From positions 992,001 through 1,056,000 of the forward strand of contig NZ_CP020469.1 of the NCBI RefSeq assembly GCF_003031405.1: DNA of 64,000 nt, written 5' to 3'. Made by a program: the position numbers and the translations under genes. This document shows positions 886 through 48,673 of this stretch, piece after piece (position 1 is the first letter of the stretch; each line of letters begins with the position of its first letter). The notes beneath the pieces were generated by a model that had not been told where the DNA came from, made no database searches, and saw only the letters and a program-made list of their open reading frames with translations. Source of the DNA: Halomonas sp. 'Soap Lake #6'. GTDB taxonomy: Bacteria > Pseudomonadota > Gammaproteobacteria > Pseudomonadales > Halomonadaceae.

Positions 886-914
886 GTGTGTTGCACTCAG
901 AGTCTGCATCCGCC
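1..914 (+). mobile_element. IS30-family element, copy 1 (left part outside window)
   Basis: The right 914 bp of an IS30-family insertion sequence. It corresponds base for base, as far as I compared, to the complete copy at 2468-3567 (offset 2653), and the encoded transposase is identical. The right terminal repeat carries GTGTTGCACTCAG followed by the AGTCTGCATCCGCC end at 914. Identity to the second copy implies recent transposition. It sits directly at the 5' side of an ATP-grasp gene and probably removed that gene's start region or promoter. Confidence 0.9.
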
Positions 915-942
915 CTTAGAAAAAACCACTATTGTTGAAAAA

Positions 943-1890
943 ATGAAAAAGCAGGGTTTGGGGCCACAACTTATAGCTTTCGAAGCTGCACTTGATGAAG
1001 CTAAAGTGTCAATGCTTACGAAGTACCTATTTGTTTGTGACAAGGCTGGTAAAAAAGTACTTTTTCATGATGTTAGGGCTAGTGACTCTGCAGCAGCCAA
1101 TTCAGTAACTGAGAAGCGGCTCGTACTTCGTAAAATATTGAAGAATGCAGGCGTGAAAATCCCTAATGCCCGACATGTCCGGACTGCTAACGTAGCAGAA
1201 AAAGCAAGAAAGGGGCTAGGGAAAAGTGTAAATGTATGGTCAGTTGAGTCTGGTAATAAGAAATTATCAGAAGGTGTGACAACACAAAAGCGCTTACAGC
1301 AGGTTTTTGAACGTCATCATGCAGATGGTAAAGGAGTGCTGCTCGAAGAGCACATCTCAGGAGATAGTTTTCGTGTTCTTGTTGTAGGTTCGAAGGTAGT
1401 GGCTGTACTTGGAAAACGGCCTGCCAGCGTTACTGGCAATGGCGAATCGACGATAGAGGAGCTTGTAGAAATAAAGAATGAGAAAAGAAAGGTAAACCCA
1501 TGTTACCTTGGTAAGCTTATTAAGCTTGATAAGGTTGCACAAGCTAGAATTAAGCGAGCAGGACTAACGGCTGATAGTGTACTCCCAGACGGTCAATATT
1601 TTGAGTTAGGAAAGAACTTAGGAATTTCCTCTGGTGGTGAGTTCTTCGATGTTACGGATACTCTTCACCCAGAGGTTGAGGAAGCTGCGATTAATGCAGT
1701 TAAAGCTATACCCGGCCTAGATGTTGCTGGGGTTGATGTTGTGCAATCTAATTCTGGAGATGATGCTAGTTCTTATGTTGTTGGAGTTTGCTGTAATCCA
1801 AATATTGGTATTCATCACTTTCCTATGGAAGGCTCAGCGAGAAATGTAGCGAGAGAGATATGGGTTAATGCACTGAATGCCCTTAAGTGA
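943..1890 (+). CDS. ATP-grasp protein with degenerate active site (5' end cut by IS30)
   Basis: A protein of the GshF/cyanophycin-synthetase ATP-grasp type, about 315 residues from the first in-frame ATG. The open frame continues back to the IS30 end at 914, so a few N-terminal residues and the true start have probably been lost. Recognisable parts are VTGNGESTIEELV, the ISSGGEFFDVTD stretch, GLDVAGVDVV and the closing HHFPMEGSARNVARE. Key positions differ from the sister proteins here: the VVVKP lysine and glycine-rich loop are replaced (NVWSVESGN), and the metal-binding E-x-N before the terminal Pro reads GVCCNP. I infer a non-catalytic or strongly altered paralogue, perhaps a partner subunit of the active ligases nearby. 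No Shine-Dalgarno is clear before the chosen ATG. Base composition is AT-rich like the rest of the island. Confidence 0.7.
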   Translation: MKKQGLGPQLIAFEAALDEAKVSMLTKYLFVCDKAGKKVLFHDVRASDSAAANSVTEKRLVLRKILKNAGVKIPNARHVRTANVAEKARKGLGKSVNVWSVESGNKKLSEGVTTQKRLQQVFERHHADGKGVLLEEHISGDSFRVLVVGSKVVAVLGKRPASVTGNGESTIEELVEIKNEKRKVNPCYLGKLIKLDKVAQARIKRAGLTADSVLPDGQYFELGKNLGISSGGEFFDVTDTLHPEVEEAAINAVKAIPGLDVAGVDVVQSNSGDDASSYVVGVCCNPNIGIHHFPMEGSARNVAREIWVNALNALK

Positions 1891-2467
1891 TGAGATGTGT
1901 TTAAATATTTTTGTTCCATAAGTTGAAGTAAGAAGTGTTTTTAATGGCTAAGTGTAAAATTGGTTTTATACTTTCGTTAAAGACACTTCTTATGCTGTAG
2001 TAATTAATGGATAAAGCTTGTTTCTATAAGGTTGAAAGCCTGAGAGGTCGGGAATGAATAAAATATTCAAAGCTGAATGCTATAAGACGGTTGTTCCATT
2101 GAAGAGGCCCTTTTCTACCTCTCGGTTTACAAGTACTAAATCAACTAACTATATCATCCGGTTGGAGTGTGAGGGAGTTGTAGGGGTAGGGGAGGCTGCC
2201 GCACGTGGTTACAAATTGACGGGAGACCATAAAAAGACTTTACCAAGTGTTATAGAACAAATGCTGGAAATTACTAGAGAGAGTTATATTGATCTCTCTA
2301 GTAAAGATAAAGCCTTAGAGTCGATCAGGCTTATTCTTTCTAAGTTAGAAAAATGTGCAGCAGATAATGCCAGTGAAATTAATAAAAAGAAACCATTCAG
2401 AGGAATACTATCCGGTTTTGATATTGCCTTACTTGATTTGGCTGCGAGAGGATTAAACATTACAGTC

Positions 2468-3567
2468 CTTGGCCGCAGAAACTGAGTGCAACACCTGAGT
2501 ATTTCGCTAAGGTGTTGTCCCATGTCTTACCTCGAACTCAGCATTGAAGAACGTGCCAGCATTCAAGTGGGTCAAGCCCAAGGGATGAGCCTTCGGCATA
2601 TTGCCCAGCTCTTAGGGCGAGCTCCTTCAACCATCTCTCGTGAAATACGCCGTAACCAAATGGCCCAGAACGGTTACTGTGCCCGGCACGCTCAACGTCA
2701 GCGAGAAAAGCGTCGAGCGGCCTGTCGCCCGAAACAGAAGCTTGTGCTAGGCACGGAGCGTTTTGACCTCATCGTTTATATGTTGCGGCGACGCTTGTCT
2801 CCCGAACAGATTAGCGGCAAGCTCAAGGCCATGACATTACCTGACCTAAGCGATGCCTACGTCTGCCGAGAGACGATATACACGGCTATTTATGCCCTGC
2901 CCGTTGGCCACCTGCGCAAGGAGCTGATTCACTGCTTGCGACAAGGAAAAACCACGCGTAAGCCTCGCCGTGGCGAAGTAGATCGACGTGGTCAGATCCC
3001 TGACATGGTCAGCATCCACTTACGTCCGCCCGAGGTCAGTAAGCGTGAAATGCCCGGCCACTGGGAAGGCGATCTGATTAAAGGTAAGAATAACGCGTCT
3101 GCGGTAGGCACCTTGGTAGAACTTAGCAGTGGCTATCTGATCCTCGCAAAAATGGACGACGCCACCGCCACATCCGCCGTAGCAGGTTTTAGTGCCGCCC
3201 TGAACCGAATGCCGACCACCGCTCGAAAAAGCATGACCTATGATCAGGGGCGTGAAATGACACACCATGCAAAAATTACTCAAGAAACCGGTGTTGCGAT
3301 TTACTTTTGCGATCCCCATAGCCCCTGGCAACGGGGAGCTAATGAGAATATCAATGGCCTTATCCGTCAATATTTACCGAAAGGAACAGACCTTTCAGTA
3401 CATAGCCAGGAAGAGCTGGATGCCATTGCCTTTGAGCTGAATATGCGGCCTCGAAAACGCTTTGATTTTAAATGTCCGATAGAAGTGATGAGCGAGCTGA
3501 TGGCCAAGTATCATGAGAGCCCATCAACCATCCAGTGAGTGTGTTGCACTCAGAGTCTGCATCCGCC
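2468..3567 (+). mobile_element. Complete IS30-family insertion sequence, copy 2
   Basis: An 1100-bp element bounded by imperfect inverted repeats of about 27 bp. The inner 13 bp (CTGAGTGCAACAC and its complement) match perfectly; the outer part matches partly. A GTC target duplication is visible at 2465-2467 and 3568-3570, and removing one copy restores the host reading frame. It encodes one transposase. A second, apparently identical copy ends at 914 in the same orientation, so the two bracket 1.55 kb in composite-transposon fashion. Confidence 0.95.
2522..3538 (+). CDS. IS30-family transposase
   Basis: Cuts and joins DNA for transposition of the surrounding element. The 338-residue protein has an N-terminal helix-turn-helix (LSIEERASIQVGQAQGMS, then RHIAQLLGRAPSTISREI), which is typical of IS30 transposases, and a DDE core in the C-terminal half. 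Length fits the family. I chose the ATG of MSYLELS because homologues begin at this S-x-L-E-x-R-x-x-I region; an upstream in-frame ATG at 2486 lies close to the terminal repeat and is less likely. Confidence 0.95.
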   Translation: MSYLELSIEERASIQVGQAQGMSLRHIAQLLGRAPSTISREIRRNQMAQNGYCARHAQRQREKRRAACRPKQKLVLGTERFDLIVYMLRRRLSPEQISGKLKAMTLPDLSDAYVCRETIYTAIYALPVGHLRKELIHCLRQGKTTRKPRRGEVDRRGQIPDMVSIHLRPPEVSKREMPGHWEGDLIKGKNNASAVGTLVELSSGYLILAKMDDATATSAVAGFSAALNRMPTTARKSMTYDQGREMTHHAKITQETGVAIYFCDPHSPWQRGANENINGLIRQYLPKGTDLSVHSQEELDAIAFELNMRPRKRFDFKCPIEVMSELMAKYHESPSTIQ

Positions 3568-5742
3568 GTCTCTTCTCTTTTAGGCCAGAAAAGACAGCAT
3601 GCATATGTTTCAGCTTCCACACTTTCAGCATCAAAAAGTTCTAGTGAAATATTAGATAGACTGCGCAATCAAGCCAAAAAATTCAGTGCATTTCGCTGCA
3701 AAGGAGCTGCTGATCACACAGAAAATCTTCATAGATTAACTTTTATGAGAGAAGTTAATCAGGAGCTATCGAAAAATACGGCTTATTGGCTAGACTTGAA
3801 TGAAGCTCTTTCTCCAGAAAGTGCAGGTGAGTTTATAAAGCTTGTTGTTAGTTGGATGAAAGAAGAGAAAAATAAAAATCAGTTAATGATTTTGGAACAG
3901 CCAGTACCTAAGAAATTTGTTCGAGAACTATGTGCCCTGCAGAAACTGTGCGATGATTTATTGCCTGAGAGCCATGGCAAAATAGCTATTATGGCTGATG
4001 AGTCTCTGTGGGATTTAGAAGACTTTAAGCAGCTTATGCATTATGGTGGCTGTAGTGCTATCAATATTAAAGTTCCCAAAGTTGGTGGCCTGATTAAGGC
4101 CTTACAGCTTGGCGAGTACGTGAATAAACACTCTCCAGAGACAATGGTATATATTGGTGGCATGATTGGTACAAGCGATATAATGGGGCGGGCTATATAT
4201 AATCTATATAAATCACTTCCAAGAATTGATTTCTGTACTACTTCTCCAGCACGAAATGTAGAAAAAAACTTAGCTATCACACCTCTGGAATATACTTCAC
4301 CAGAGTCAAGTGAGATATTGCTTGGTACTGGATTTGGCTTAGGTAGTGATTTGGATTACCAAGCTATAGAAGAGTTTAAAGATAGGGGGCCTTGGGAAGT
4401 AGACGGACTCAGTGTAATTGAGAGCAATTCTTTCGATGATACTAATTATTATGATAGAGGAGAGTTGTTAGGCTTCAAACAGAAGGAACTTGATAGTCAT
4501 CTTATTGAGCGTGAGGCTTTACTGCTTGGATTAAGCACAACGAGAGCGTCTTTAACTCATTTTTCTGTTTCTCACCCTGATAGTGATAGAAAAATTACGT
4601 TTCGCTGGACAATGGCATCTGGGTTACCTAAGAGCACAAGGCTTATTTGTCAGAAAAAAGATATTGCTAAGCAGAAGTTCAAAGCGGCGGGTGCTCCTGT
4701 TGCTGAAGGAACTGTATTTGATGTAGGAACGAGTTTAAACAAGGTAGTTGAATATGTAGAATCAATTGGTTGGCCTGTAGTTGTTAAGCCAGGTGTTGGA
4801 ACTGGTGGCGTTGGCGTGGTTGCGAATATTCAGAAAGTTGAAGACTTAAAATGGGCAATAAATAACATCGAAACTAGTAAGGTTACCAATAGTAGAAATG
4901 ATGGTACGTTTATTGTTGAAAAACATGTGACTGGAATAGAATTACGTGTACTGGTTGCAGGCGGAAAAGCCCTAAGTGCTGTCGAAAGAATACAGCCTCA
5001 TATAGTTGGCGATGGGGTAAATAATATTAGCCAATTGATTAATATTAAAAATAATGCTAGATCTAAAAACCCTAACCTTTCTAATAGTAAACTGAAGAAA
5101 GGTGAAGCTACTAAGTTTGAGCTCAAGAGACAGGGTAAAACTCTTGGCTCTATTCCGGATGCTGGAGAAGTTGTTACAATAAGCCCTGTTTTTTCTATCA
5201 GCCAAGGAGCTGATAGCCGATCAGTAATTGATCTTGTTCACCCATCTGTACTTAAGGCAGCAGTGAAAGCTGTCGAGGGTGTAGAGGGACTCTATGAAAC
5301 GGGTGTAGACTTTATTCTTCAAGACTATACTCTGCCAGTAGATGGGCAGCAAGCCTGTATCTGTGAGGTTAACTACAGCCCTGCTATTTCCTCTGCACAC
5401 TTTCCAATGTATGGGCCGGCTGTAAATGTGGCTCGTGAGTTTCTGTGTTCTGTTCTAGCCCGAAAGTGGGGGAAAGATTATTCTCACCTTGAGACAAAAG
5501 TTGACACTTCTAGCGGATTGCGTATTGAAGTTGAAAATGGGTTAGATAAAGGTGAAATTCGTGAGTTGCTTCAACTTTTTTCGAAGGAAGGAGTTGACTG
5601 CCAAGTAGATAGCTATAAATTTACTACTGTTTTAACTTGCAAGGGCGAGTTTTCTAAGATAGTAACCTGTCCCTCTGTAGTATCGAAACTGATAAGTAGT
5701 ACTGAAAATGTCAGAAATGTAGCTTCCTATCTTATTGGCTAA

Positions 5743-6090
5743 AATCACCCTCAGTGCAACACCATTCTTATAGAAGAGCGGTGTTGCACCATACGATATG
5801 TTGATTCTATAAGCTATTGTTCGGGCTGCTAATATTGATTAGTCATACTTGTTATCGATTGAGTTTGGCATAGACAATGGTTTTGGCTTTTTGTGCAGAA
5901 CCATTTTATGGTGAGATCCAGAATAACAGAATGTCTAGATATTATATAGTGAGTTTGCCAAAGGCGCCCTAGACAATTATCTGTAAAAAGTGATTAAGTT
6001 TTACAACTTAAATTTTTACTGCTTTTGAGGGTAATAGTTGCAGATAGCGTCATAATATTATTGATGTAAACCTTATATAGGGGGTGTTTG
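5743..6090 (+). other. AT-rich intergenic leader with IS-end-like hairpin
   Basis: About 350 bp without a supportable gene between the interrupted fusion gene and the acylphosphatase-MmgE/PrpD gene. It holds the hairpin annotated at 5754-5789. The rest is AT-rich and probably carries the promoter of the next gene, but I cannot assign -35 and -10 boxes with confidence. Confidence 0.4.
5754..5789 (+). repeat. 10-bp perfect palindrome matching the IS30 terminal repeat core
   Basis: GTGCAACACC, a 16-bp loop, then GGTGTTGCAC. The arms equal the innermost part of the IS30 terminal repeats found at 2468 and 3567. No T-run follows, so it is a poor intrinsic terminator. It may be a relic or a preferred target, since IS30-type elements are known to insert near sequences resembling their own ends. 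Confidence 0.6.
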
Positions 6091-7803
6091 ATGGAACATG
6101 TTTCGAAGGAAGTTCTTTGTAAATATTTTATTTTTCAAGGAGCTGTCCAAGGCGTAGGCTTTAGGAAATGGGTGAAAAGAAAAGCTATTGCTCTTGGTAT
6201 TAATGGCTGGGTATCAAATTTAGAAAATGACAAAGTGCAAGGGTATTTTCAAGGTGATGAAGACAACATAGTTAAGTTGTTGAATAGTTGTGCCGCTGGG
6301 CCATCTTTGTCTAATGTTAGTGCTATTTATACTTCTGTAGTTTGTGACTTGACCTTTCAGAACTTTTCAATAAAGAAGAACTCCCATTTTCCTGAGCATG
6401 AACTTGATTTGTTAGAGCCATATGGGGACATAGATAGAGCCGCTGCTTTTTCTTTATTTCCTGCAAAACTTAAAAGAGGTCAGCGTAAAGAGATATTTAG
6501 ATATGTTCGTGCAGTCGATTATAGTGATCTTTCTAAAATAGATATAGAGCGTTCTAAGCTGTTAATTTTAGACGCGATTGGCCTTATTTGCTTAGCTTCT
6601 ACTGATCCAAGAATGGATTCAGTCCGAAAGATTGGTCTTGAACTGTCTGGTAATTTAGAAGAGGTATCTGTTCTTGGTTTAGAACGTAAGGTTTCTGCTC
6701 CTGCCGCTGCGTTCATTAATGCTGCATATATGCAGCTTCATGATTTTAATGACGGCCACAGAGAGGCAACGGCATTAGGTGGTGATCCACACCCTGGAAG
6801 ATCATTGGTGCCTTCTGCTCTTGTGGAAGCTGGGCTTTTAAAAGTAAGTGGAAAAGATTTAATTACAGCCGTTGCTATTGGTTATGATGTTGCTTCTAAA
6901 ATCAGAGGCCGTAGAGACTTAAAACCTAAACACCCGGAATATGCCTCTGCAGCTGTAAGTGCAAAGCTTAGAAATTTTTCAACCAATATGATTTCAAATG
7001 CTCTTGGCTATGCAGGTTATTTATCTGCTAGTTTGTATGGTAAAAGGGCGAGCGGCTTTCATAGCAATGTTCTTTCTAAGGGATTCCAAGCCTATAATGG
7101 GTTAATAGCAGCTCGAGTTGCTGAAGCTGGGCAGCAAGGTCCGAATATTGAATTTGACTCTACTCGTACACTGCCTTTTTTGCTGTCAGAAGCCGGATCA
7201 GGTTTTGAAGTTTCTAAAGTATATATAAAACCTTATCCAACATGTAGAATGACACATAGCCCTATAGCTGCTCTAGAACATGCCATGAACTCACTGGATG
7301 TTGGGCATACGGAAATAGAGAGTATATTAGTAAAGCAGCTACCGGCTGGTATGTATATCGCTAAAAAAAAGCCCAGGCCTGGAATTAATTATAAGCAAGC
7401 TCAGTTTAATCTTTTTTATTGCTTAGCGCGATATGCCTTTGATCGAAAGATGGGCGTTGAGCAGTTCTCAGAAGAGAAGTGTTCTGAAAAAGCATTATTT
7501 GAATTTATAGAAAAAATTGAAGTTGTTAAGGATGCTGCTCTTTCTAAAGGCTATCCACTTAAAAAGAGGTCTGCTAGCGTAGAGATAAAAACATATGACG
7601 GTCGAAGCTTCGCTTGTCAAGTAGATTTAGCCCCTGGTAGTGCTGAAGACCTTGAGGAGAGTCTCGTCGCTGAAAAATTTTATAAAAATTGTGATGGCGT
7701 TATTAGCAGTGATAACGCTAAGAATTTATATGATATGGTAATGTCGATCGAAGAAATTGAAGATGTATCATTATTTTCTGAGAAAATGAAAGATGCTTTG
7801 TGA
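6091..7803 (+). CDS. Acylphosphatase-MmgE/PrpD fusion protein
   Basis: A 570-residue, two-domain protein with no signal peptide. Residues 10-95 form an acylphosphatase: QGAVQGVGFRKW supplies the phosphate-binding Arg25 and GWVSNLEND the catalytic Asn43. Residues from about 120 to 560 form an MmgE/PrpD domain, with HDFNDGH, GDPHPGRSLVPSAL and KPYPTCRMTHSPIAA. Known MmgE/PrpD members are 2-methylcitrate dehydratase, cis-aconitate decarboxylase and iminodisuccinate epimerase, so the domain could dehydrate, decarboxylate or epimerise a carboxylic or amino acid substrate. The acylphosphatase could hydrolyse acyl-phosphate intermediates of the neighbouring ATP-grasp ligases; this is inference. I chose ATG 6091 because GGGGTG lies four bases before it. 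I know of no described protein with this architecture. Confidence 0.8.
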   Translation: MEHVSKEVLCKYFIFQGAVQGVGFRKWVKRKAIALGINGWVSNLENDKVQGYFQGDEDNIVKLLNSCAAGPSLSNVSAIYTSVVCDLTFQNFSIKKNSHFPEHELDLLEPYGDIDRAAAFSLFPAKLKRGQRKEIFRYVRAVDYSDLSKIDIERSKLLILDAIGLICLASTDPRMDSVRKIGLELSGNLEEVSVLGLERKVSAPAAAFINAAYMQLHDFNDGHREATALGGDPHPGRSLVPSALVEAGLLKVSGKDLITAVAIGYDVASKIRGRRDLKPKHPEYASAAVSAKLRNFSTNMISNALGYAGYLSASLYGKRASGFHSNVLSKGFQAYNGLIAARVAEAGQQGPNIEFDSTRTLPFLLSEAGSGFEVSKVYIKPYPTCRMTHSPIAALEHAMNSLDVGHTEIESILVKQLPAGMYIAKKKPRPGINYKQAQFNLFYCLARYAFDRKMGVEQFSEEKCSEKALFEFIEKIEVVKDAALSKGYPLKKRSASVEIKTYDGRSFACQVDLAPGSAEDLEESLVAEKFYKNCDGVISSDNAKNLYDMVMSIEEIEDVSLFSEKMKDAL

Positions 7804-8004
7804 TTACCTGATATGGTTGAGTGTTGAATCTTAGGTACTATGGTTTATAGAGTGGTTTTCAAGACTCTTCATTGAGGTGTCCTATATTTGAAGCTCTTTA
7901 GGGTATATGATCATTTATTCGGGGTGATACTGATTCTCTTTTTATGGGTTGAATTTTGATTTAATCTCTGAGATTTTAAATAAAACTTCTTGTTCGAGGG
8001 TGTT

Positions 8005-9315
8005 ATGGAAAATAATTTTGATGTTCATATTATTGGTGGTGTTCCGCGTAATCTTAAAGGCCATCAAATGATAGAGGCTGAGGCCTGGTTAATGGGGTTG
8101 TCGACTGTTCGTACTTCAGGTACAGTGTTTAACATCATACTTCCGAACGAAGATAGTATTGGATTCTCTTATTCGCGGCTTCAGAATGCTCCAAAGAAAT
8201 CGATACTTATAGCTAAAAATAAAGAAATGACTAAAGAAGTGCTAAAGTCATCTAACTTGCCTGTAGCAGAAGGGCAGGTTTTTGAATCAACACAAGTTGA
8301 TGAAGCGGTCGAATTTGCAAAAAAAATTGGCTATCCAGTAGTTGTTAAACCTATTAGTGGAAAGCAAGGTAGAGGCGTTTTTGCAAATTTACAAACTGAC
8401 AGCGAATTGAAAAAATCTTTTGTAAAGTCTAGTCAAGAAGGCTTTAAAGATTCAAGGCTAATTGTTGAAAAACACATTAAAGGAAAAGACTTTCGGGTTT
8501 TTTCTACTCGTGACCGAGTATGCTCAGTAGTTGAGCGTATTCCAGCCTTTGTTGTAGGTGATGGTATCTCCACAATTTCCGAATTAGTTGTGCAAAAAAA
8601 TGAAAGGCGAAAGTATAATCCTCGTTATTTTTCTACTCCCATTAATGAAAATAATGATCTAGACTTGTTGGCTCGTCAAGGGTATTCCGCTAATAGTATT
8701 CCAGAAAGCGGTGCTCACATTAGATTGAGTTCAACAGCAAATTTGTCGAGAGGGGGGGAAAGCCGTGAATGTATAGATGTAACACATCCATCAATACTTG
8801 AGGTTGCAAGTCTGGCCGTGCGAGCAATACCAGGTCTGGAGTATGCGGGTGTTGATATTCTCATGGAAGACCCTAGCATACCTATTGATGGGCAGGATTT
8901 CTCAATTGTTGAAATTAATAGCGCTCCAATGTTAGTCATGCATCCTTTCCCAGGTTCGGGAAAACCGCGCAATGTTCCGCGCATGATTGTTGAAGACCTG
9001 TTGATTAAAAATGGGTTTAGCGCTAACAACCCTGTAAGTGAAGATTGTGTTTTTGCAAAAATAATAGTCACAGGTACGGTTAGAAAGGTTGGCTATTTAA
9101 AATGGATTAAAGCAAAAATGGATAATCTTGAGCTGAAGGGATACGTTCGTGTTTCCAGTGACTTTGTTGAAGCATATGTAGAGGGATGCCCCCACCGTAT
9201 AAGTCTGTTAACAGCTGCTTGCTTAAAAGGTTCTGCACGCTCCCTGCCCAAAGAAGTAAAAACTTATCCAATGTTAAAACAGGATTTCGACTCAGAAGTT
9301 GCCGGTTTTGTATGA
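8005..9315 (+). CDS. ATP-grasp ligase with degenerate acylphosphatase-like C-terminus
   Basis: A 436-residue cytosolic protein. After a roughly 65-residue N-terminal segment it has a GshF/CphA-type ATP-grasp fold: VVVKP with Lys115, a glycine-rich loop, VVGDGISTISELV, NLSRGGESRECIDVTHP, GVDIL with Asp284, and the metal-binding VEINSAP (Glu303, Asn305). It should activate a carboxylate as acyl phosphate and join it to an amine. Residues 347-425 resemble acylphosphatase (VTGTVRKVGYLKW), but the Arg is Leu365 and the catalytic Asn is Val383, so hydrolysis is unlikely; a structural or binding role is my inference. The start is ATG 8005 behind GAGGG. It follows the active acylphosphatase-MmgE/PrpD gene by 200 bp in the same direction. 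Confidence 0.82.
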   Translation: MENNFDVHIIGGVPRNLKGHQMIEAEAWLMGLSTVRTSGTVFNIILPNEDSIGFSYSRLQNAPKKSILIAKNKEMTKEVLKSSNLPVAEGQVFESTQVDEAVEFAKKIGYPVVVKPISGKQGRGVFANLQTDSELKKSFVKSSQEGFKDSRLIVEKHIKGKDFRVFSTRDRVCSVVERIPAFVVGDGISTISELVVQKNERRKYNPRYFSTPINENNDLDLLARQGYSANSIPESGAHIRLSSTANLSRGGESRECIDVTHPSILEVASLAVRAIPGLEYAGVDILMEDPSIPIDGQDFSIVEINSAPMLVMHPFPGSGKPRNVPRMIVEDLLIKNGFSANNPVSEDCVFAKIIVTGTVRKVGYLKWIKAKMDNLELKGYVRVSSDFVEAYVEGCPHRISLLTAACLKGSARSLPKEVKTYPMLKQDFDSEVAGFV

Positions 9316-9571
9316 TTTTGGCTTGGTGCCTTTGTGATGAGGTAGTAAATTCGCGCGACCTGATTAGAGACACCAATATTTACTGAGAATATCACTAAGT
9401 GGCAGTATGTAAATAACTGTGATTTTCAATCCAGTTGTCCAAATAGCTGCCTCTGCAGGCTCTTTATTAGGAGCAACTTCCTGCTATTTGCCAGATACCG
9501 AGCTAGGTAAGTGACTCTGCATAAACCATCGTGTATAAGGAAAAAAAACACACAGAGAGGAATGCGGAACC

Positions 9572-10552
9572 ATGTCTCGGCGTTTACGCTTTGTTTCTTT
9601 AACACCTGACCTGCAACGTATCTTAAATGAGGCCTACCAGTACAGCGAAAAGAGAGTACTACGGAGCCGGGCTCACTAAGCCACAAGGGCCATACGATTA
9701 ACCAGATATCGCGATATGATCGGGGTTAAGCGCGATACGGAGTCGGCTTGGTTATCCCAATGGGAAGCCGATGGTAATGAGGGGCCCCGAGATAAGCCTC
9801 GTGAAGGACGCCCCCACCACTCAGCGAGAGCGAGCTTGCTGTGTTAGAGCAATGGGTTGAAGATCATCCCCATGATCTGTCCTCAATGCCAAGTTCCAGG
9901 AGCAGAGCGGTAATATTGTTAGTCAAGACACGTTGCGTAGCGCGTTAATAAAGCTATAGCTGTAAGTGGATACGTCGCTCATTGACGGCACGACGTGACG
10001 AGACAGATTTCCGCCATACACAAGAGATGATCAATGTATTGAAGGAGTGGGAGGACGATAGTGAGTGCAACCTCTATTTCTTCGATGAAGCCGTTTCTCG
10101 CAATCCTCGTCACTTCCTTATGCATGGAGCCCGATAGCAGACCCCTGGGAAGTCACCGCCTGCTCACATAGCAAGTGACTGAATGTAATAGATTTTCTTA
10201 CCAGAAAAGGTGGGTTTTTTCACCATATGATCACCGAGTCAGTCGCAACGAAGACCGTTATAGAAGAGAAGCCTTTGATAAGTTTGCGGCACATAAAGAC
10301 CCTGACGCCTTCGTCGTCGTGATACTGGATAATGCCAAAATACACCGTCCCAAGGCATTCCGACGCAAACTTATTGATTGGATGGGGAATCGTATTCACT
10401 TGGTCTATTTATCGCCTTATTCGTCGGGGCTGAACCTGATCGCAATCCTTTGGCGCGCAATCAAATACCGGTGGCTACCACTGACAGCCTGTCGCTCGTT
10501 TGATAAGCTTTGTGAAGCGGCCAAAAACATATGCAATGGTTTACGGTACTGA
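9572..10552 (+). pseudogene. IS630-family transposase remnant
   Basis: A decayed transposase. From ATG 9572 it reads MSRRLRFVSLTPDLQRIL, then a stop and frame changes. Recognisable IS630 blocks follow: GVKRDTESAWLSQWE with a helix-turn-helix, LYFFDEA, and VVILDNAKIHRPKAF. The final block reads SPYSSGLNLIAILWR; in active members this is PPYSPELNxIExxW, so the catalytic Glu is Ala. It is a dead element and evidence that this island has collected several IS types. Confidence 0.75.
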
Positions 10553-11276
10553 TCGCTCAATAGCTTTTGCATAACTACTTACCTTAAGCTTTATCAAGTG
10601 GGTGGAATAGGTCGATTGCGTCAGCGTATAGCCTACAAAATGGGACTATGTTTACTTCATCTGTGTAATGTGAAAGGCTTTTGCTAGAGCCATAAGCGAA
10701 CCTACTGAATTTCGCGAGTTGGGGCAGGATCCGCGTATCAAACCGAATAAATGGTTAATCCGTTAGAAGGCTGAGTGTTCAGCGGTACTCGAGACACCTG
10801 GCTCGTGGATGCTATACATGAACAGCCTAGTGATGGTCTGTGATATAGCCTACTACACGTTATAGACGAATTTAACTGAGAAGGCCTTAGTATCAGTTGA
10901 TACCTCGTTATTTACAGAACGGGTTATCTTTGGCGCTATACCAGATCATTGAATCGTGCAGTAAGCGGCGCTCTGTTCGCAGTTATAACGGGCTGAATAT
11001 ATCAGCGGTTAACTGTCGTTATGGATGCGTAGCCGGGGTAGTAGGCCACTTATTTAGTCTGCTTGGCAAAATTCAGCAAATTGCGTATACAAAGCGTTAC
11101 AACCGGAAGGTACGCTATGGCTAGTCAATCGCATATCTGTTCGAAAGTACTGAGGTAGTTGAGGGTTGTGCGACTCGCTCACCTCTGCACTACAAATACG
11201 AGCGCCTTAATATGGTGTTTGTAAGGATTATCTCGCAACACAAGCTGGCCAATATGGCCTTAACTCCACTTATGAC
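10553..11276. other. Decayed non-coding stretch, probably old insertion debris
   Basis: About 720 bp without a convincing gene. The longest open stretch (10897-11124, plus strand) gives a 75-residue peptide I do not recognise. Base composition is nearer to the surrounding chromosome than to the AT-rich ATP-grasp genes, and broken frames follow one another, which suggests degraded mobile DNA. I could not identify an element family. Confidence 0.4.
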
Positions 11277-11305
11277 ACCCTCTGAAAATGAGGGTATTAT
11301 CAGAG
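11277..11305 (+). promoter_or_regulatory. Two mutually exclusive small hairpins before an ATP-grasp gene
   Basis: ACCCTC (11277) pairs with GAGGGT (11290), while CTCTGA (11280) can pair with TCAGAG (11300). The two stems share bases, so only one can form. They end ten bases before the start codon at 11315, where they could affect ribosome access. The stems are short and chance cannot be excluded. Confidence 0.25.
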
Positions 11306-11314
11306 TGATATATA

Positions 11315-12280
11315 ATGGAATTTTATTCAAAAAATTTAAGTGCCCAACACTTTGCCGAGCGAGCCGTGGTTCGAGGCTTGCAGGTTAAATCTGGGAGATC
11401 TGGTAATTATTTGGTGATAAGTGATGGAAAGAAAAGGCTAAGTGTAACCAAAAGTCTGCTCGGTTGTCAGTCAACATTTACCAGGATTTTTAATAATAAA
11501 GGTGCTTCCAAGTTGTATCTTAAATCATTGGGGGCTAGTGTTCTTGATGGTAACCTTTACTTGGCTGCTGAAGCAGATCGAGCACTTGCCTATGCCGAAG
11601 CGATTGGGTTCCCAGTGGTTATAAAGCCTGATAATGAAAACAAAGGGCGAGGGGTTTATGTTAATGTTGAAAGAGAGAACTTCTATGACTTTTTTGAGTT
11701 AGTTTCTCAAAGGAACGGTTCCGCGTTCGTTGAAAAACAGTGTGACTTCACGGATGAGTATAGGCTATATTGCGTTAAGGATAAAGTTGTTGCAGCGACT
11801 CAGCGCCTTCCTGCAAATGTTACTGGGGATGGAGAGCGCTCAATAGAGGAGTTAGTCGAAGCGAAGAATTTAGAGCGAAAGAAGAGAGGGTATAACAAGT
11901 ATCCAAAAATAAAACTTGATGACGAGGTTTTTCGAGTTTTAAGTAAATCTGAATATAGTCTAAAGTCAATCCCGAATGTTGGCAAGAGAGTTTTTCTTAG
12001 ATCTACTTCTAATATCTCAACGGGGGGGGAAGGGATAGATGTGTTAGGTAAAATTCACTCGTCGTATATTAAATCTATTGAGAGTGTGATGGAGAAAACT
12101 CCCTATGCCTTCTTGGCCGGGTTTGATGTTTTTATTCGTGATGTTTTAAAGCCCGCTTCAAAAGATAATTGGTATATCTGTGAAGTAAATCGTCAGCCTG
12201 CTGTAAGAATGCATGTATACCCCTGGATCGGAGAGCCAAGATTCGTCGGTGACTTTATCATGGATGCTTATTTTGATTGA
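11315..12280 (+). CDS. ATP-grasp ligase, GshF/CphA type
   Basis: A 321-residue stand-alone ATP-grasp protein. It has a short N-terminal segment, then GFPVVIKPDNENKGRGV (ATP-binding Lys and glycine loop), FVEKQ, VTGDGERSIEELVEAKN, ISTGGEGIDVLG, AGFDVFIRD and the metal site YICEVNRQPAVRMH. All catalytic positions expected of the family are present. It should form an amide bond through an acyl-phosphate intermediate; the substrate is unknown. It lacks the C-terminal extension seen in the larger paralogues. The Shine-Dalgarno is weak (GAGTGA). It lies between IS630 debris and another ATP-grasp gene and is AT-rich like them. Confidence 0.82.
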   Translation: MEFYSKNLSAQHFAERAVVRGLQVKSGRSGNYLVISDGKKRLSVTKSLLGCQSTFTRIFNNKGASKLYLKSLGASVLDGNLYLAAEADRALAYAEAIGFPVVIKPDNENKGRGVYVNVERENFYDFFELVSQRNGSAFVEKQCDFTDEYRLYCVKDKVVAATQRLPANVTGDGERSIEELVEAKNLERKKRGYNKYPKIKLDDEVFRVLSKSEYSLKSIPNVGKRVFLRSTSNISTGGEGIDVLGKIHSSYIKSIESVMEKTPYAFLAGFDVFIRDVLKPASKDNWYICEVNRQPAVRMHVYPWIGEPRFVGDFIMDAYFD

Positions 12281-12405
12281 CTTTTCTTCGATATTTGATT
12301 TTTATTTAAAGATGCATAAAAAATAATGGCTGACATGAAATCATCGCTTCTATTGAAAATATTAGAAGATGAAAAATCTGTTGTGTTGTTGTGATAGGAG
12401 GCGTT

Positions 12406-13530
12406 ATGGGTTGTGATGTCTTATTACGTGCTAAGCTTACTCACAGTGAACTAAATTCTTTTCTCATTGAGTATGAGGCGCGAAAAATTGGTTTACATAC
12501 GTTTCGATTAAATCGTTACTATGTTAGGTGCTCGGATTCGAAGGGACGCACAGTTTTGTTTAGGCGTGCATGCGGGCCCGGGGTGAGCCGCGCAGCCTAC
12601 CAGATATGCATGAATAAGTATCAAACAAAGCGCCTGTGGGATGAAGATGGCATACCACATAATGCCTATCGGCTTCTTTCTTCAGCTGAGTACGGCAGTG
12701 CTGTTGAGTTCGCCGAAAAAAACGACTGGCAGATCGTCATAAAACCAATTAATGGAGCGGGCGGTAAAAATGTTTTTACAGGTATAAAAAACGAACAAGA
12801 TCTGTCGAAGTTTTGGAGAGTGCTTGAAAAAAAGAAAAACTCTAAGGTTAGAAATATTTTGGTTGAGCGCCGATTTATTGGTGATGATTTTCGTTTCTTT
12901 GTAGTGGCAGGTCGTGTGCAAGGGGTGTTGGAGCGTGTCCGACCCAATATTGTTGGGGATGGCCGCCGAACAGTAGGGGAGTTGATTAATGCAAAACGCC
13001 AGACTCGCCTCTTAAACCCTGACTTAGCGGCTCGGCCTATAAAGGAAGACTCTGTTGTTGAGCATCAACTGAAGGCGCATAAGGTAGACCGTGAAAGTGT
13101 GCTGCCAGAGGGTTTGAAAATTGTTCTCCGTGGAAATGCTAATATTTCAACAGGCGGTGAGCACCGGGATCGCACTGACGAAATTCCAGAAAGCATAAAA
13201 GCACTCGTCGAACGAGCTGTGGCAAGCCTTCCTAATGCTACTACAAGCGCGGTTGATGTTTTGGCCAAAGATATCACAGATGGGGTAAATCTAAATGAAG
13301 AAAGTATTGTACTGAATGAGATTGAAGCCGATGCTGCGATGTGTATGCATCATTTTCCCATGCATGGTACACCGAGAAATTTGGCACGTAGAATTTTGCT
13401 CGAGAGTTACCCAGAATTGGATGATGGATCTGTTGGCTCACCGTACTCTCACGACTTTGATGAAAATGAGAAGCTTTCGAAAGAGTTGATAAGCTGTATC
13501 AAGTCCTTTGAGCCTGGATTCATTAAATAA
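12406..13530 (+). CDS. ATP-grasp ligase-like protein, altered metal site
   Basis: A 374-residue paralogue of the neighbouring ATP-grasp proteins. Visible blocks are IVIKPINGAGGKNVF, LVERRFIGDDFRFFVV, IVGDGRRTVGELINAKR, NISTGGEHRDRTDE and the end block LNEIEADAAMCMHHFPMHG. The metal-binding E-x-N-x-x-P of active sisters is E-I-E-A-D-A, keeping the Glu but replacing the Asn, so activity may be changed. The last 35 residues are polar and unrelated to the C-terminal domain of the fusion proteins. ATG 12406 is chosen because AGGAG ends five bases upstream; an in-frame GTG at 12391 would place that site inside the gene. IS30 debris follows directly. Confidence 0.8.
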   Translation: MGCDVLLRAKLTHSELNSFLIEYEARKIGLHTFRLNRYYVRCSDSKGRTVLFRRACGPGVSRAAYQICMNKYQTKRLWDEDGIPHNAYRLLSSAEYGSAVEFAEKNDWQIVIKPINGAGGKNVFTGIKNEQDLSKFWRVLEKKKNSKVRNILVERRFIGDDFRFFVVAGRVQGVLERVRPNIVGDGRRTVGELINAKRQTRLLNPDLAARPIKEDSVVEHQLKAHKVDRESVLPEGLKIVLRGNANISTGGEHRDRTDEIPESIKALVERAVASLPNATTSAVDVLAKDITDGVNLNEESIVLNEIEADAAMCMHHFPMHGTPRNLARRILLESYPELDDGSVGSPYSHDFDENEKLSKELISCIKSFEPGFIK

Positions 13531-13668
13531 CCACAGCACTTTGGATCACACAGTAGAGGACGGAGGGCCTGCGCTGCTACCCTCTTGACTTTACCAATGG
13601 GGTTCGCCGCCGCCGCCCTACAGTCAGCGCTGCTGCACCATAATGGAGGGTGAGAGGGGGGAATTCTC

Positions 13669-14010
13669 CCGAAAAACATGGCCTACGATCAGGAGCGTGA
13701 AATGGCGCAGCATGCCAAGATCACCCAGAAAACCGGCGTTGCTATTTACTTCTGCGATCCACATAGCCCCTGAGAACGTGGGGCTAACGAAAATATCAAT
13801 GGCCTTATTCGCCAATATTTACCGAAAGGGACGGATCTCTCTGTGTAGCCAGGAAGAGCTAGACGAGACTGCCTTCGAGCTAAATATGTGCCCTCGAAAG
13901 CGCTTTGGCTTTAAATGTCCGGTAGAAGCGATAAGCTAACTGATGGCTAAGCATTATGAAAGCCCACCCACAATCTAATGAGTGTGTTGCACTCAGAGCC
14001 TGCATCCGCT
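13669..14010 (+). mobile_element. Decayed IS30-family remnant (3' part)
   Basis: Only the last third of an IS30-type element remains. It is similar but not identical to the intact copies: the transposase stretch around YDQ..REM is recognisable, a Trp codon has become a stop in HSPxERGANENI, and a frameshift precedes SQEELD. It ends with GTGTTGCACTCAGAG and CCTGCATCCGC, matching the right terminal repeat. It represents an older insertion than the two intact copies. Confidence 0.8.
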
Positions 14011-14042
14011 GGTGATTAAGCGTGACTTGGAGGGTGATCCAA

Positions 14043-14198
14043 ATGCGTGTGCTTGGTGTCTACCATTTTCTTAAAGATGACTTCTCGTTGCAGCACCTGC
14101 GCAATGTATTGGAAGATAGTGATGCTTACGCTATCTTATCCAAAGAACCTATCGCTTTCTTACTTGAACGTTGGCGTAGCACTATGAGGGAGAATTGA
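14043..14198 (+). pseudogene. Fragment of a TupA-like ATP-grasp gene
   Basis: A 51-codon open stretch whose first part (LGVYHFLKDDFSLQHLRNVLE) closely matches the intact TupA-like protein at 17299 (LGVLTAQILKDDFSLQHLRDVLE). The second part jumps to a segment similar to its ILEQLYQEMREH, so an internal deletion is likely. It is a remnant of a second tupA-like gene, meaning the unit around the enolase-ATP-grasp fusion was once flanked by tupA-like genes on both sides. Confidence 0.7.
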
Positions 14199-14308
14199 TT
14201 CGATATCGATGAGCACTTGTCATTCACTAGCGTGTAGCGAAGGCGCGTTAGCACACCTGTGTATCTTTGCCATCTTTATTATTGGGAGGGTCCTGATGTA
14301 TAAAATTG

Positions 14309-14334
14309 CTTCAGTTGGGGAACTGAAGGTTTTA
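14309..14334 (+). terminator. Possible intrinsic terminator
   Basis: CTTCAGTT, a GGGG tetraloop and AACTGAAG form an 8-bp perfect stem, followed by GTTTTAT. It lies after the tupA-like fragment and before the fusion gene at 14501. The T-run is short, so efficiency may be modest. Confidence 0.4.
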
Positions 14335-14500
14335 TAATGAGCAGGTTTTTCGTCAAGTGACTAATAATGAATCGCCAGTTAGCTGTAAAAATGGCTGAAA
14401 AGTGCATTTGATACACATGCATCAGCTAAGTCATATATAAAGAACATCTAAGACCGCTGGGAAATGTTAGTATTTAACTTGTTTTAACTTGGGTGTTTAT

Positions 14501-17143
14501 ATGTTATCAAATTTTTTGAGCTATTTTGTTGGTAAAAGTGATTCAAAAAAGACAAGTGTCCACAAGATTTTCAAAGCCGAATGCTATAAAGCTGTTGTTC
14601 CGTTAATAACTCCATTTTCTACTTCTCGTTTTACAAGCACAAAGTCTACAAATTACATTGTCAGGCTCGAGTGTGATGGTTTTGTTGGCATAGGTGAGGC
14701 CGCTGCTCGGGGGCCTAAGCTTACAGGCGATCATAAAAAGTATAACTCAGGCATTATTGAAAAGATGCTCGATATAGTTAGTGAAAGCACTATCGACTTC
14801 AATGATAAAGAGTCTGCGTTAACTTCAATCAAAGCCATTTGTTCAGAGTTAGAGGCTTGTGCTGTAGAAAATGCTAGGAAGGTTAATGAAAACAAGCCGT
14901 TTAGAGGAATTCTTTCGGGCTTTGATATTGCTCTGCTGGATTTGACTGCTAAAAAGCTAGGTATAACTGTATCGTCTTTATTGGGAGAAAAAAGAGAGCG
15001 TACTTATGTCTCTGCTTCCACGCTTTCAGCATCCAAAGGTGCTGCGGAAATTATTGATAGATTACGTAGTCAGGCACAAAAGTTTGATGCGTTTCGCTGT
15101 AAAGGCGCAGCAGACCATGCTGAAAACCTTGATAGGTTAGACGGCATGAGAAGTGTTAACAAAGAGCTATCAAAGAATACATCTTACTGGCTGGATTTGA
15201 ATGAAGCCCTTTCACTTGAAAGTGCAGTCGAGTTTATACATTTAATTGTTGACTGGATGAGCAAGGAGGATAATGAAAAGCAGTTAATGATTATTGAGCA
15301 GCCTGTTCCTAAGAAGTATGTGAAAGAGCTATGTGCTCTACAGCAACTGTGTGATGATTTGCTGCCACTGAAACATGGCAGAATCGCTATTATGGCAGAT
15401 GAGTCATTATGGGATTTGGATGATTTTAAACACCTAATGAGTCATGGCGGCTGTAAAGCAATTAATATAAAAATACCTAAGGCTGGTGGTTTAATTAAAG
15501 CTTTGGAGCTTGGGGAGTATGTTGAGAAAAACTCGCCGGATACCATGGTATATATAGGTGGTATGATTGGTACCAGCGATATGATGGGCAGGGCTATTTA
15601 CAACCTTTATAAAGCACTTCCTAGAATTGATTTTTGCACAACATCGCCTGCTGCAAACGTTGAAAAAAATCTTGCAAAAAATCCACTTCGCTATGCTTCT
15701 GCTTCAACAAATGAAATTCTTCTGGGAGGTGGCTCGGGTTTAGGGTCTGACTTGGACTATAAAGCAATAGAGAAATATAAAGAAGATGTGATTCCAAGAG
15801 GAGAGGATGTTTCTTTCACTCTACCACTAGTTTTTGATAATTCACTGAATATTTACGAGAACAAAGAGCTTCTCGGCTTTATTCCTAGAGAACTTGATAA
15901 TCACCTAATTGAGCGTGAAGCACTGCTGCTTGGGCTTAATTCAGTTCGTTCTACATCAACTAAATTCTCAGTTTTCGAAGCTGATAATATAGCCACCTTT
16001 TCCTGGACTATGCCGTTAGGTCTTCCTAAAGAAACAAGGCTTGTATGTAAGGAAAAAGCGGTTACCAAAGAGTTGTTTAGGTCAGCAGGTGCCCCTGTAG
16101 CAGAGGGTAGGTCATATAGTATTAATGATGATAGGGCTGAAATTGTTGCCTATGCAGAAAAGTTGGGTTGGCCTGTGGTTGTTAAGCCAGGAGTAGGAAC
16201 CGGTGGTGTTGGTGTAACTGCAAATATCACCAACACTGAAGAGTTATTATGGGCAATAGAGCAACTGTCTGAAAATAAACTGGCTAGCGACAGAAATAAT
16301 GGCACCTTAATATTAGAAAAGCACATCGCTGGTAAAGAGCTTCGAATTTTAGTCGCTGGTGGTAAGGCGATTAGTGCAGTAGAAAGAATTCAACCGCATG
16401 TTACTGGCGATGGAAAACATAATGTTTCGGTGCTGATTGATCATAAGAACTACTTAAGGGCTAAGAACCCAAATCTTTCTAATAGTAAATTAAAGAAGGG
16501 GGATGCTGCTAAATTCCAGCTAAACCGGCAGGGAATGACTTTTGAATCAGTTCCTGGGGCTGGTAAGGTTATAACGCTTAGCCCTGTGTTTTCAATTAGC
16601 CAAGGGGCAGATAGCCGTTCAGTCATCGACTCTATTCATGGTTCGGTACTAGCTGCAGCAGTTAAAGCTACCAGTGGTGTTGAGGGATTACATGAGGCTG
16701 GTGTAGATTTAATTCTTGAGGACTACACTAAACCGATTGAAGGGCAGCAAGCATGTGTTTGTGAAGTCAATACAAGCCCCGCGATCTCATCCGCTCACTT
16801 TCCTATGTATGGCAAACCGGTCAACGTAGCGCGTGAGTTTTTATGCTCTGTGTTGCACAGAAAGTGGGGAGAGAATTACTCCCATATTGACACAGCGCTT
16901 GAGAATTCTAGCTATACGGGTATTTTTATCGAGGTCGAGGGTGAGTTAGACCATCACCAGCACACCTACATTCTTCGTGAACTGGAAGCGGAAGGGGTTG
17001 AGTGTGAAATTAAACGCTACCGATTCGTAACTGCTTTATCTTGTAAAGGGGACTTGTCTAAAATTCTGACTCTCCCATCTTTGATTTCAATGTTAATCAG
17101 CAGTAGCAGTGATGTTAGAAAAGTCACGTCATTTCTTTTTTAA
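14501..17143 (+). CDS. Dipeptide-epimerase-like/ATP-grasp ligase fusion protein
   Basis: An intact 880-residue fusion, paralogue of the gene broken by IS30. Residues 20-430 are an enolase-superfamily barrel with the full set expected of dipeptide epimerases: R199-x-K201, metal ligands D232, E266 and D300, K324 opposite, and D417-x-D419 in SDLD, which in Ala-Glu epimerases binds the peptide amino end. Residues 455-790 are a GshF/CphA-type ATP-grasp ligase (Lys562 in VVVKPGVGTGG, VTGDGK, Asp736, Glu755 and Asn757 in CEVNTSP). Residues 805-880 form a small alpha/beta domain of unknown role. The likely reaction is ligation of two amino acids or peptide extension, plus inversion of one alpha carbon; the substrate is unknown. 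ATG 14501 follows GGGTG by five bases. Confidence 0.85.
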   Translation: MLSNFLSYFVGKSDSKKTSVHKIFKAECYKAVVPLITPFSTSRFTSTKSTNYIVRLECDGFVGIGEAAARGPKLTGDHKKYNSGIIEKMLDIVSESTIDFNDKESALTSIKAICSELEACAVENARKVNENKPFRGILSGFDIALLDLTAKKLGITVSSLLGEKRERTYVSASTLSASKGAAEIIDRLRSQAQKFDAFRCKGAADHAENLDRLDGMRSVNKELSKNTSYWLDLNEALSLESAVEFIHLIVDWMSKEDNEKQLMIIEQPVPKKYVKELCALQQLCDDLLPLKHGRIAIMADESLWDLDDFKHLMSHGGCKAINIKIPKAGGLIKALELGEYVEKNSPDTMVYIGGMIGTSDMMGRAIYNLYKALPRIDFCTTSPAANVEKNLAKNPLRYASASTNEILLGGGSGLGSDLDYKAIEKYKEDVIPRGEDVSFTLPLVFDNSLNIYENKELLGFIPRELDNHLIEREALLLGLNSVRSTSTKFSVFEADNIATFSWTMPLGLPKETRLVCKEKAVTKELFRSAGAPVAEGRSYSINDDRAEIVAYAEKLGWPVVVKPGVGTGGVGVTANITNTEELLWAIEQLSENKLASDRNNGTLILEKHIAGKELRILVAGGKAISAVERIQPHVTGDGKHNVSVLIDHKNYLRAKNPNLSNSKLKKGDAAKFQLNRQGMTFESVPGAGKVITLSPVFSISQGADSRSVIDSIHGSVLAAAVKATSGVEGLHEAGVDLILEDYTKPIEGQQACVCEVNTSPAISSAHFPMYGKPVNVAREFLCSVLHRKWGENYSHIDTALENSSYTGIFIEVEGELDHHQHTYILRELEAEGVECEIKRYRFVTALSCKGDLSKILTLPSLISMLISSSSDVRKVTSFLF

Positions 17144-17220
17144 GTAATTGCTCGCGAAATAATGTGACTGCCGCAGCTGTTTTTTTCATTTTATCGCCGT
17201 ATCGTCAATCATTTGCCTGT

Positions 17221-46751: not shown

Positions 46752-46759
46752 GCCAGAAC

Positions 46760-47521: not shown

Positions 47522-47562
47522 GGGTATTCTCCTTAATTAGACGCGTCCAAGTCGCTGCGATG

Positions 47563-48084: not shown

Positions 48085-48092
48085 TCGAGAAG

Positions 48093-48635: not shown

Positions 48636-48673
48636 AGTAAACCCCATTAAGAGAGATTAATTGCTTAAAGGTG

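Follow-up and report, generated by a model that had tools for sequence, protein, structure and literature searches.

Gene content of the cassette

A cassette of ATP-grasp ligase genes, some of them fused to isomerase-like or acylphosphatase (AcP) domains, occupies positions 886-17143 of a 64,000-nt stretch of DNA from Halomonas sp. 'Soap Lake #6' (assembly GCF_003031405.1, NZ_CP020469.1:992001-1056000, forward strand), the whole of which was analysed and is referred to here as the window. The host genome, labelled G000, is a single contig of 4.8 Mb, in which the window is G000:C1:992001-1056000. This gene set is real and conserved, a ligase cassette whose make-up changes from one capsule locus to another. 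Our own ATP-grasp model places the six CphA/GshF-type ATP-grasp domains at window positions 919, 4471, 8014, 11315, 12409 and 15875, and Pfam and NCBIfam agree. An earlier interpretation made from the letters alone, the sequence-only reading, had counted six GshF/CphA-type ATP-grasp proteins in 16 kb; all six domains are confirmed, one of the genes being split.

All features run on the plus strand. The gene at 14489-17143 encodes an intact three-part protein, in which an MLE-type enolase is followed by a CphA-like ATP-grasp domain and an AcP-like fold; the catalytic residues of the enolase are present, and the last fold was recognised from the succession of its strands and helices in a structure model (approximately residues 805-884). 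Of the two enolase-ATP-grasp fusions proposed earlier, both were recognised through MR_MLE_N and MR_MLE_C, but one is split by an IS30-type element into a 5' part with MR_MLE_N (2054-2485) and a 3' part with MR_MLE_C and the ATP-grasp domain (3535-5742), whose first 11 codons belong to the element and which is 66% identical to the intact paralogue. The two predicted AcP fusions are also found. At 6088-7803, an N-terminal AcP (E 2.6e-20) with its catalytic Arg/Asn pair is joined to MmgE_PrpD_N (E 3e-34) and MmgE_PrpD_C (E 2.6e-26), while at 7990-9315 a CphA-like ATP-grasp domain carries a C-terminal AcP-like domain (E 1.7e-8) from which this pair is absent. Two further CphA-like ATP-grasp genes lie at 11315-12280, with a relative of 56% identity in the family genome G063, and at 12391-13530, where Glu replaces Asn at the second metal-site position; the ATP-grasp-like protein at 886-1890 is catalytically degenerate. 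Behind the set follow a TupA-like ATP-grasp gene (17299-18198; PF14305, E 8.8e-25), a GT2-type glycosyltransferase (18297-20297) and a group 1/GT4-type glycosyltransferase (20294-21949), present in nine, nine and eight, respectively, of the nine loci compared below. Remnants are interspersed: a DDE_3 transposase fragment recognised by Pfam (10175-10552), an IS30-like transposase remnant in pieces with 86% and 70% amino acid identity (13672-13975), and 42 amino acids of a second TupA-like gene with 60% identity (14028-14147).

The capsule locus and its sister loci

Judging by their domains, the surroundings resemble capsule loci that export through an ABC transporter. Upstream, in L009, lie genes for a Poly_export protein, an ABC-2 membrane protein, an ABC ATPase, a UDP-sugar dehydrogenase and nucleotide-sugar functions, together with two ATPgrasp_ST proteins, a 634-aa protein composed of ATP-grasp and AcP domains (the core) and a 401-aa divergent ATP-grasp protein. 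Downstream, TupA and the glycosyltransferases are accompanied by a CTP_transf_3 protein and by another protein that matches Capsule_synth. The gene at L009:6025-7227 belongs to the UDP-glucose/GDP-mannose dehydrogenase family and is a putative source of UDP-glucuronate.

The comparison covered 275 Halomonadaceae genomes, among them Vreelandella nigrificans (G222), of the same genus, and Halomonas sp. 328 (G004), of the same family. Strong TupA matches (E < 1e-140; the tenth match, at 1.2e-22, was left out) occur in nine genomes from three genera, and the core protein (threshold 1e-50; weakest best match among the counted genomes 2.3e-100) occurs in the same nine; the chance of this overlap would be 4.6e-17 if the genomes were independent, which, being from three genera, they are not. 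The order in all nine loci is two flanking proteins, core, variable genes, TupA and glycosyltransferase, the core of G063 being placed by protein search, since ORF (open reading frame) picking had chosen the opposite strand. The suspected link to a surface polymer is thereby strengthened, as every locus has the set enclosed by the same flanking proteins on one side and by TupA with a glycosyltransferase on the other. In seven loci (all but G000 and V. nigrificans), TupA and the glycosyltransferase are separated by one extra ATP-grasp gene, which in Halomonas sp. 328 is an enolase-ATP-grasp gene.

AcP is present in 9/9 loci, each with 4 to 8 ATP-grasp domains after double matches inside one ORF of G203 and G256 had been merged; the remaining modules vary. 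Enolases with intact catalytic residues are found in four loci (G000, V. nigrificans, Halomonas sp. 328 and G203), and a separate dead enolase follows the flanking pair, ahead of the core, in four (V. nigrificans, G108, G073 and, below the model threshold, G063). Such stand-alone dead enolases (L060:2385-3779, L068:5021-6409 and partners), their catalytic lysines lost, directly precede the core ligase and match the fused dead enolase of actinobacterial cores. The fused type of MmgE/PrpD occurs in only two loci, G000 and V. nigrificans. PGA_cap (five of nine) and Mur ligase (four of nine) are confined to the eight sister loci, and neither model matches the window locus. An S11 peptidase, a carboxypeptidase, is encoded in G203 (partial) and G256, and a Ddl-like protein in G203, with its G256 partner assigned by homology. 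The sister loci thus contain modules that belong to the chemistry of peptides, murein and polyglutamate.

Many of these modules are tied directly to ligases by fusion. V. nigrificans has ATP-grasp, ATP-grasp, AcP and MmgE/PrpD in one chain of 1386 aa, adjoining an enolase-ATP-grasp gene, and PGA_cap-ATP-grasp in another chain. The other fusions are Mur ligase-enolase-AcP in G203, peptidase-Mur ligase-AcP in G256 and partly in G203, ATP-grasp-PGA_cap-Mur ligase in G073 (same homology group as in G108) and ATP-grasp-PGA_cap-ATP-grasp in G063, with PGA_cap alone in G272. The sequence-only reading had suggested searching other genomes for the enolase-ATP-grasp fusion together with the AcP-MmgE/PrpD fusion, and both stand side by side in V. 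nigrificans. Two putative same-genome pairs of these types come from other strains, P0013 with P0030, both from Halomonas sp. AOP42-D1-22, and P0015 with P0032. Because the set co-occurs in other genomes, the arrangement is more than chance. The nine loci are not nine independent designs, since G108 and G073 share one mix and G203 and G256 nearly do.

Family-wide matches to single proteins are broader. The enolase-ATP-grasp query matches 55 of the 275 genomes at E 1e-30, mostly through its ATP-grasp part alone, and the MmgE/PrpD query matches 18 at E 1e-20, with the fused type only in G000 and V. nigrificans; in the other genomes just the MmgE/PrpD part is matched, at 25-30%.

Insertion damage and a degenerate ligase

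The two IS30-type copies, one beginning 185 bases before the window (-185 to 914, hence 1-914 within it) and the other at 2468-3567, are identical 1100-bp blocks, each flanked by 3-bp direct repeats. The bases ahead of the first copy, read by eye, encode MFTESSSLD, and orthologues of the 886 protein start with MFTEASSLD; the element therefore sits inside the 886 gene, interrupting it after approximately codon 9, and the ORF at 886-1890 starts inside the end of the element. The 886 protein lacks both the lysine and the E-x-N motif of ATP-grasp enzymes, which we take to bind ATP and Mg, respectively, and its orthologues in G203 and G256 (333 aa, 51% identity) equally lack them. By this conservation, it is a non-catalytic ATP-grasp relative, putatively a maintained pseudoenzyme.

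An uninterrupted frame is kept in four of the six ATP-grasp genes, all four with the lysine and the first carboxylate, and the 12391 protein has E-x-E for E-x-N. Six working ligases in this strain were considered and rejected, as one gene is split and another is both interrupted and catalytically degenerate. The cassette of this strain has lost one putative epimerising ligase to IS30. In single pairwise comparisons with V. nigrificans, the ratio of nonsynonymous to synonymous substitution rates is 0.145 for the 14489 gene and 0.041 for TupA, which shows selection on both. Guanine-cytosine (GC) content is 0.38-0.46 in the first 18 kb of the window versus 0.53-0.58 in most two-kb blocks of its second half (11 of 16), and parts of the capsule locus at 28-40 kb are also low. 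The low GC of the cassette fits horizontal gain, without proving it.

Catalytic features of the domains

For all six ATP-grasp domains, NCBIfam ranks cyanophycin synthetase first, but the scores (161-249 bits) stay below the cut-offs of 850-877; the domains are therefore relatives of cyanophycin synthetases and not members. On these scores, and since the window proteins have no Mur-type domain, identity with cyanophycin synthetase was rejected. NCBIfam matches of this ligase family include cyanophycin, glutathione and N-acetylglutaminylglutamine enzymes. A non-ribosomal peptide synthetase (NRPS) was likewise discarded, the cassette proteins scanned having no adenylation, condensation or carrier domains.

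In the 14489 enolase, an MLE-type fold, the D/E/D residues and the lysines on strands 2 and 6 are all present; these we assume to be the metal ligands and the acid/base pair, respectively. Both lysines and the metal ligands are kept in 12/12 enolase-ATP-grasp relatives checked, including the split copy of the window. The best sequence match in the PDB is 3r0k, a putative dipeptide epimerase (E 2.3e-15), and fold and family scores fit dipeptide epimerase, N-acylamino acid racemase and cycloisomerase alike. Dipeptide epimerases hold the substrate ammonium with a D-x-D motif on strand 8; at the putatively corresponding place, the window enolase has D381-x-C383.

The Arg/Asn pair, presumably the catalytic pair of AcP, is kept in the 6088-7803 protein and lost in both 7990-9315 and the upstream core. 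The 6088-7803 protein has both MmgE/PrpD Pfam domains and the superfamily fold. It was not accepted as a cis-aconitate decarboxylase: of the residues that we take to be catalytic in that enzyme, the HMMER alignment keeps Asp93, and the other four differ, Thr97, His103, Lys207 and His277 being aligned with Gly, Ala, Asn and Cys386, respectively.

Relatives beyond the family

Of 7998 candidates scored, 308 proved to be relatives of the core at E < 1e-3, and the top 120 among them were examined further. All of these 120 have an AcP-like domain, with both AcP catalytic motifs in 77 by a strict pattern that misses some, and 36 carry the enolase domain PF13378 in precomputed Pfam annotation. Organism names were attached to 19 of the 120, and 18 of the 19 are Actinomycetota, with genera including Nesterenkonia, Phytoactinopolyspora, Natronosporangium and Haloechinothrix. 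These host names make a link to alkaliphily or salinity a candidate only. In the enolase domains that actinobacterial cores often have, the strand-2 lysine is lost in 6/6 checked and the strand-6 lysine in 5/6; given the lost strand-2 lysine, they were not counted as epimerases.

Against 396 Actinomycetota genomes, the core-type query P0095 gave strong matches in three, including Ilumatobacter, a centre chosen for having the genes. Here five enolase-ATP-grasp-AcP units stand in a row, the one checked having intact catalytic residues, with ATPgrasp_ST and an ABC ATPase nearby. A gene for a pyridoxal phosphate-dependent decarboxylase (L078:4208-5824) lies directly before this row, a possible amino-acid supply step. 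On a G653 contig, the core (48% identity) and a 401-type ATP-grasp (28%) form an unbroken run with an ABC ATPase, ATPgrasp_ST and PGA_cap-ATP-grasp, beside which lies an enolase-ATP-grasp relative whose enolase part is undetected by Pfam, and two short contigs of G619 carry parts of the set. The association crosses phyla, yet it is rare.

A pattern scan of genome contigs for enolase-ATP-grasp, based on two short patterns, returned four loci; it under-counts, because the protein search lists many core relatives absent from it. One of the four, L079 (27% identity), is a plain enolase-family gene, judging by its ORF. In viral contigs scanned with the enolase-ATP-grasp alignment, 30 pattern-matching stretches included no relative. 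Plasmid records contained no near DNA match to window positions 4000-17200 and, at the protein level, 61 records with partial matches, none covering 80%; 10 of the 61 comprised eight cyanophycin synthetases and two dipeptide epimerases. The PADLOC models matched none of the six proteins and therefore give no backing for a defence role.

Proposed function and alternative explanations

We consider it reasonably probable that the gene set is the variable, exchangeable centre of the capsule locus and that it provides a non-ribosomal ATP-grasp route to a short peptide, with some residues epimerised, which is joined to the capsular glycan. The peptide product and both isomerase reactions, those of the enolase and of MmgE/PrpD, are predicted from the domains. 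A template-independent peptide route with inverted residues had been proposed in the sequence-only reading, and domain co-occurrence and capsule context bear it out in part, whereas the product and the isomerase roles stay predictions, MmgE/PrpD is found in two of the nine loci only, and not all six ligases are functional.

ATP-grasp ligases are described as forming amides via acyl phosphates (PMC13338154, in the part available), and following this family chemistry each CphA/GshF-type unit would convert a carboxylate to an acyl phosphate and form one amide bond. Linked ATP-grasp ligases are said often to work one after another (PMC4431377, in part). The enolase fused before an ATP-grasp domain may invert, at its alpha carbon, the residue that is being ligated, a role suggested by its intact catalytic residues and by the fusion itself. 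Since amide ligases commonly have no isomerisation activity, as an excerpt of one review puts it (PMC3815933), a fused epimerase would fill that gap. MmgE/PrpD, fused to AcP and, in V. nigrificans, to ATP-grasp, could carry out another reaction at an alpha proton, either epimerising or dehydrating an acidic residue. AcP domains with intact sites probably clear wrongly activated acyl phosphates, and degenerate ones may be structural or binding units. The ATPgrasp_ST and TupA ligases would attach the peptide to a sugar, probably at a uronic acid carboxylate, because the TupA-like ATP-grasp enzyme of Campylobacter jejuni forms an amide on capsule glucuronic acid (PMC11800379, as excerpted). The ABC capsule exporter would then move the product out, and swapping of modules between fixed flanks could give strain-specific, serotype-like surface peptides.

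That same Campylobacter enzyme (PMC11800379, in part), with the UDP-sugar dehydrogenase nearby, would also suit a simpler scheme of capsule decoration only, in which each ATP-grasp enzyme would couple just one amino acid or amine to the carboxylate of a sugar, giving amides but no peptide chain, and the enolase would serve as a racemase for amino acids in N-acylated or amide-bound form. By its fold, the enolase could equally well be an N-acylamino acid racemase or a dipeptide epimerase. We regard this as unlikely, though worth keeping in view, for the 4 to 8 ATP-grasp domains per locus, and the Mur ligase, PGA_cap, Ddl and carboxypeptidase modules of sister loci, suggest that a chain is built and trimmed. 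If a chain is built, it could be a polyamide capsule, that is, a polyglutamate- or cyanophycin-like homopolymer in which the epimerases give a D/L mixture. PGA_cap in five of the eight sister loci points this way, as does TupA, which belongs to teichuronopeptide, a polyglutamate-polyglucuronate (PMC8153356, in part), and the polyglutamate ligase of Bacillus halodurans is given as unidentified and maybe of the ATP-grasp type in the available part of a review (PMC3815933). Many different ligases per locus would be unnecessary for a homopolymer, however, and the PGA_cap and Mur-ligase models are without a match in the window locus, which makes this explanation rather improbable.

The named relatives of the ligase family in NCBIfam, makers of cyanophycin, glutathione and N-acetylglutaminylglutamine, would suit a soluble peptide natural product or osmolyte, of the sort made by other ATP-grasp ligases, with its genes lying in a capsule locus by chance. 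The fixed flanks with TupA and glycosyltransferase in 9/9 loci, and the ATPgrasp_ST and ABC ATPase genes beside the set in Actinomycetota, argue against such chance, and we think a soluble product very unlikely.

Returning to a peptide on a capsular glycan, we tentatively extend this reading to a modular ligase counterpart of peptide synthetases, an extension that we hold to be possible but doubtful. Enolase-ATP-grasp-AcP would then be an elongation module that epimerises, condenses and edits; active and dead enolases would mark which residues are inverted; MmgE/PrpD, Mur ligase and CapA would be alternative modules; and cassettes of these modules would be exchanged between constant flanks, diversifying a capsule decorated with peptide, in at least two phyla.

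Comparison with known systems and implications

No description of this gene set was found in a search of open-licence full-text literature, in keeping with the earlier impression that no described cluster has it. Work by Iyer and colleagues in 2009 on ATP-grasp amidoligases reportedly predicted gene neighbourhoods for capsule and teichuronopeptide ligases, which may overlap in part with this set. With the teichuronopeptide system of alkaliphilic Bacillus, the locus shares a TupA-like ATP-grasp, a UDP-sugar dehydrogenase and the logic of a peptide on a glycan; it differs in its array of CphA-like ligases, its fused enolase and AcP domains and its ABC capsule exporter in a Gram-negative bacterium. 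Amidation of the C. jejuni capsular polysaccharide, by the TupA-like amidoligase Cj1438, likewise combines a TupA-like ATP-grasp and a glycosyltransferase in a capsule locus; to our knowledge, its products are amides of small amines, and we know of no ligase array or epimerase there.

Among named proteins, cyanophycin synthetase, GshF and CphA2 are nearest in sequence to the six ATP-grasp domains; in place of the Mur-type domain of cyanophycin synthetase, window proteins are fused to enolase or AcP. The poly-gamma-glutamate capsule systems (CapBCA/PgsBCA) share PGA_cap and Mur-ligase modules with the sister loci, where these are mostly fused to ATP-grasp, AcP or enolase; the window locus lacks both. 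Dipeptide epimerases, MLE-subgroup enolases, have in common with the window enolase the fold, the metal ligands and the acid/base lysines, but in the latter Arg takes the first position of the KxK pair and the enzyme is fused to a ligase. That ligation followed by enolase-type epimerisation works has been described for a penicillin route pairing the TabS ligase with the Thermotoga maritima dipeptide epimerase (Nat Commun 2026; PMC13338154, in part); that is a man-made pair of stand-alone enzymes, in contrast to the natural fusion in the window.

If the proposed route is correct, it would be another way besides NRPS to set peptide order and chirality by modular enzymes, at the cell surface, and the natural ligase-epimerase fusions would be direct tools for making peptides with D-residues. 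The changeable cassette between fixed flanks is a candidate cause of capsule diversity. Through TupA, it may also offer a lead on the ligase behind teichuronopeptide, a polymer held to help alkaliphiles control internal pH (PMC8153356, in the part available).

Further observations in the host genome

A glycosyltransferase-like ORF at window 21912-24440, read by eye, contains a Ser-Asp-Ser-Gln repeat stretch that is possibly variable in length. On the minus strand, ORFs at 43366-48647 resemble, by eye, a chaperone-usher fimbrial operon, and at 52093-60884 the translations include a 2486-aa ORF resembling a type I polyketide synthase together with a 444-aa aminotransferase-like ORF. At L010:4857-10217 (G000:C1:19857-25217, minus strand), well away from the capsule locus, a ligase megaprotein of 1786 aa unites one YheC/D ATP-grasp and two CphA-like ones with an AcP domain, whose catalytic motifs were seen by eye, and adjoins ORFs that appear to encode ABC-transporter and HlyD-type proteins.

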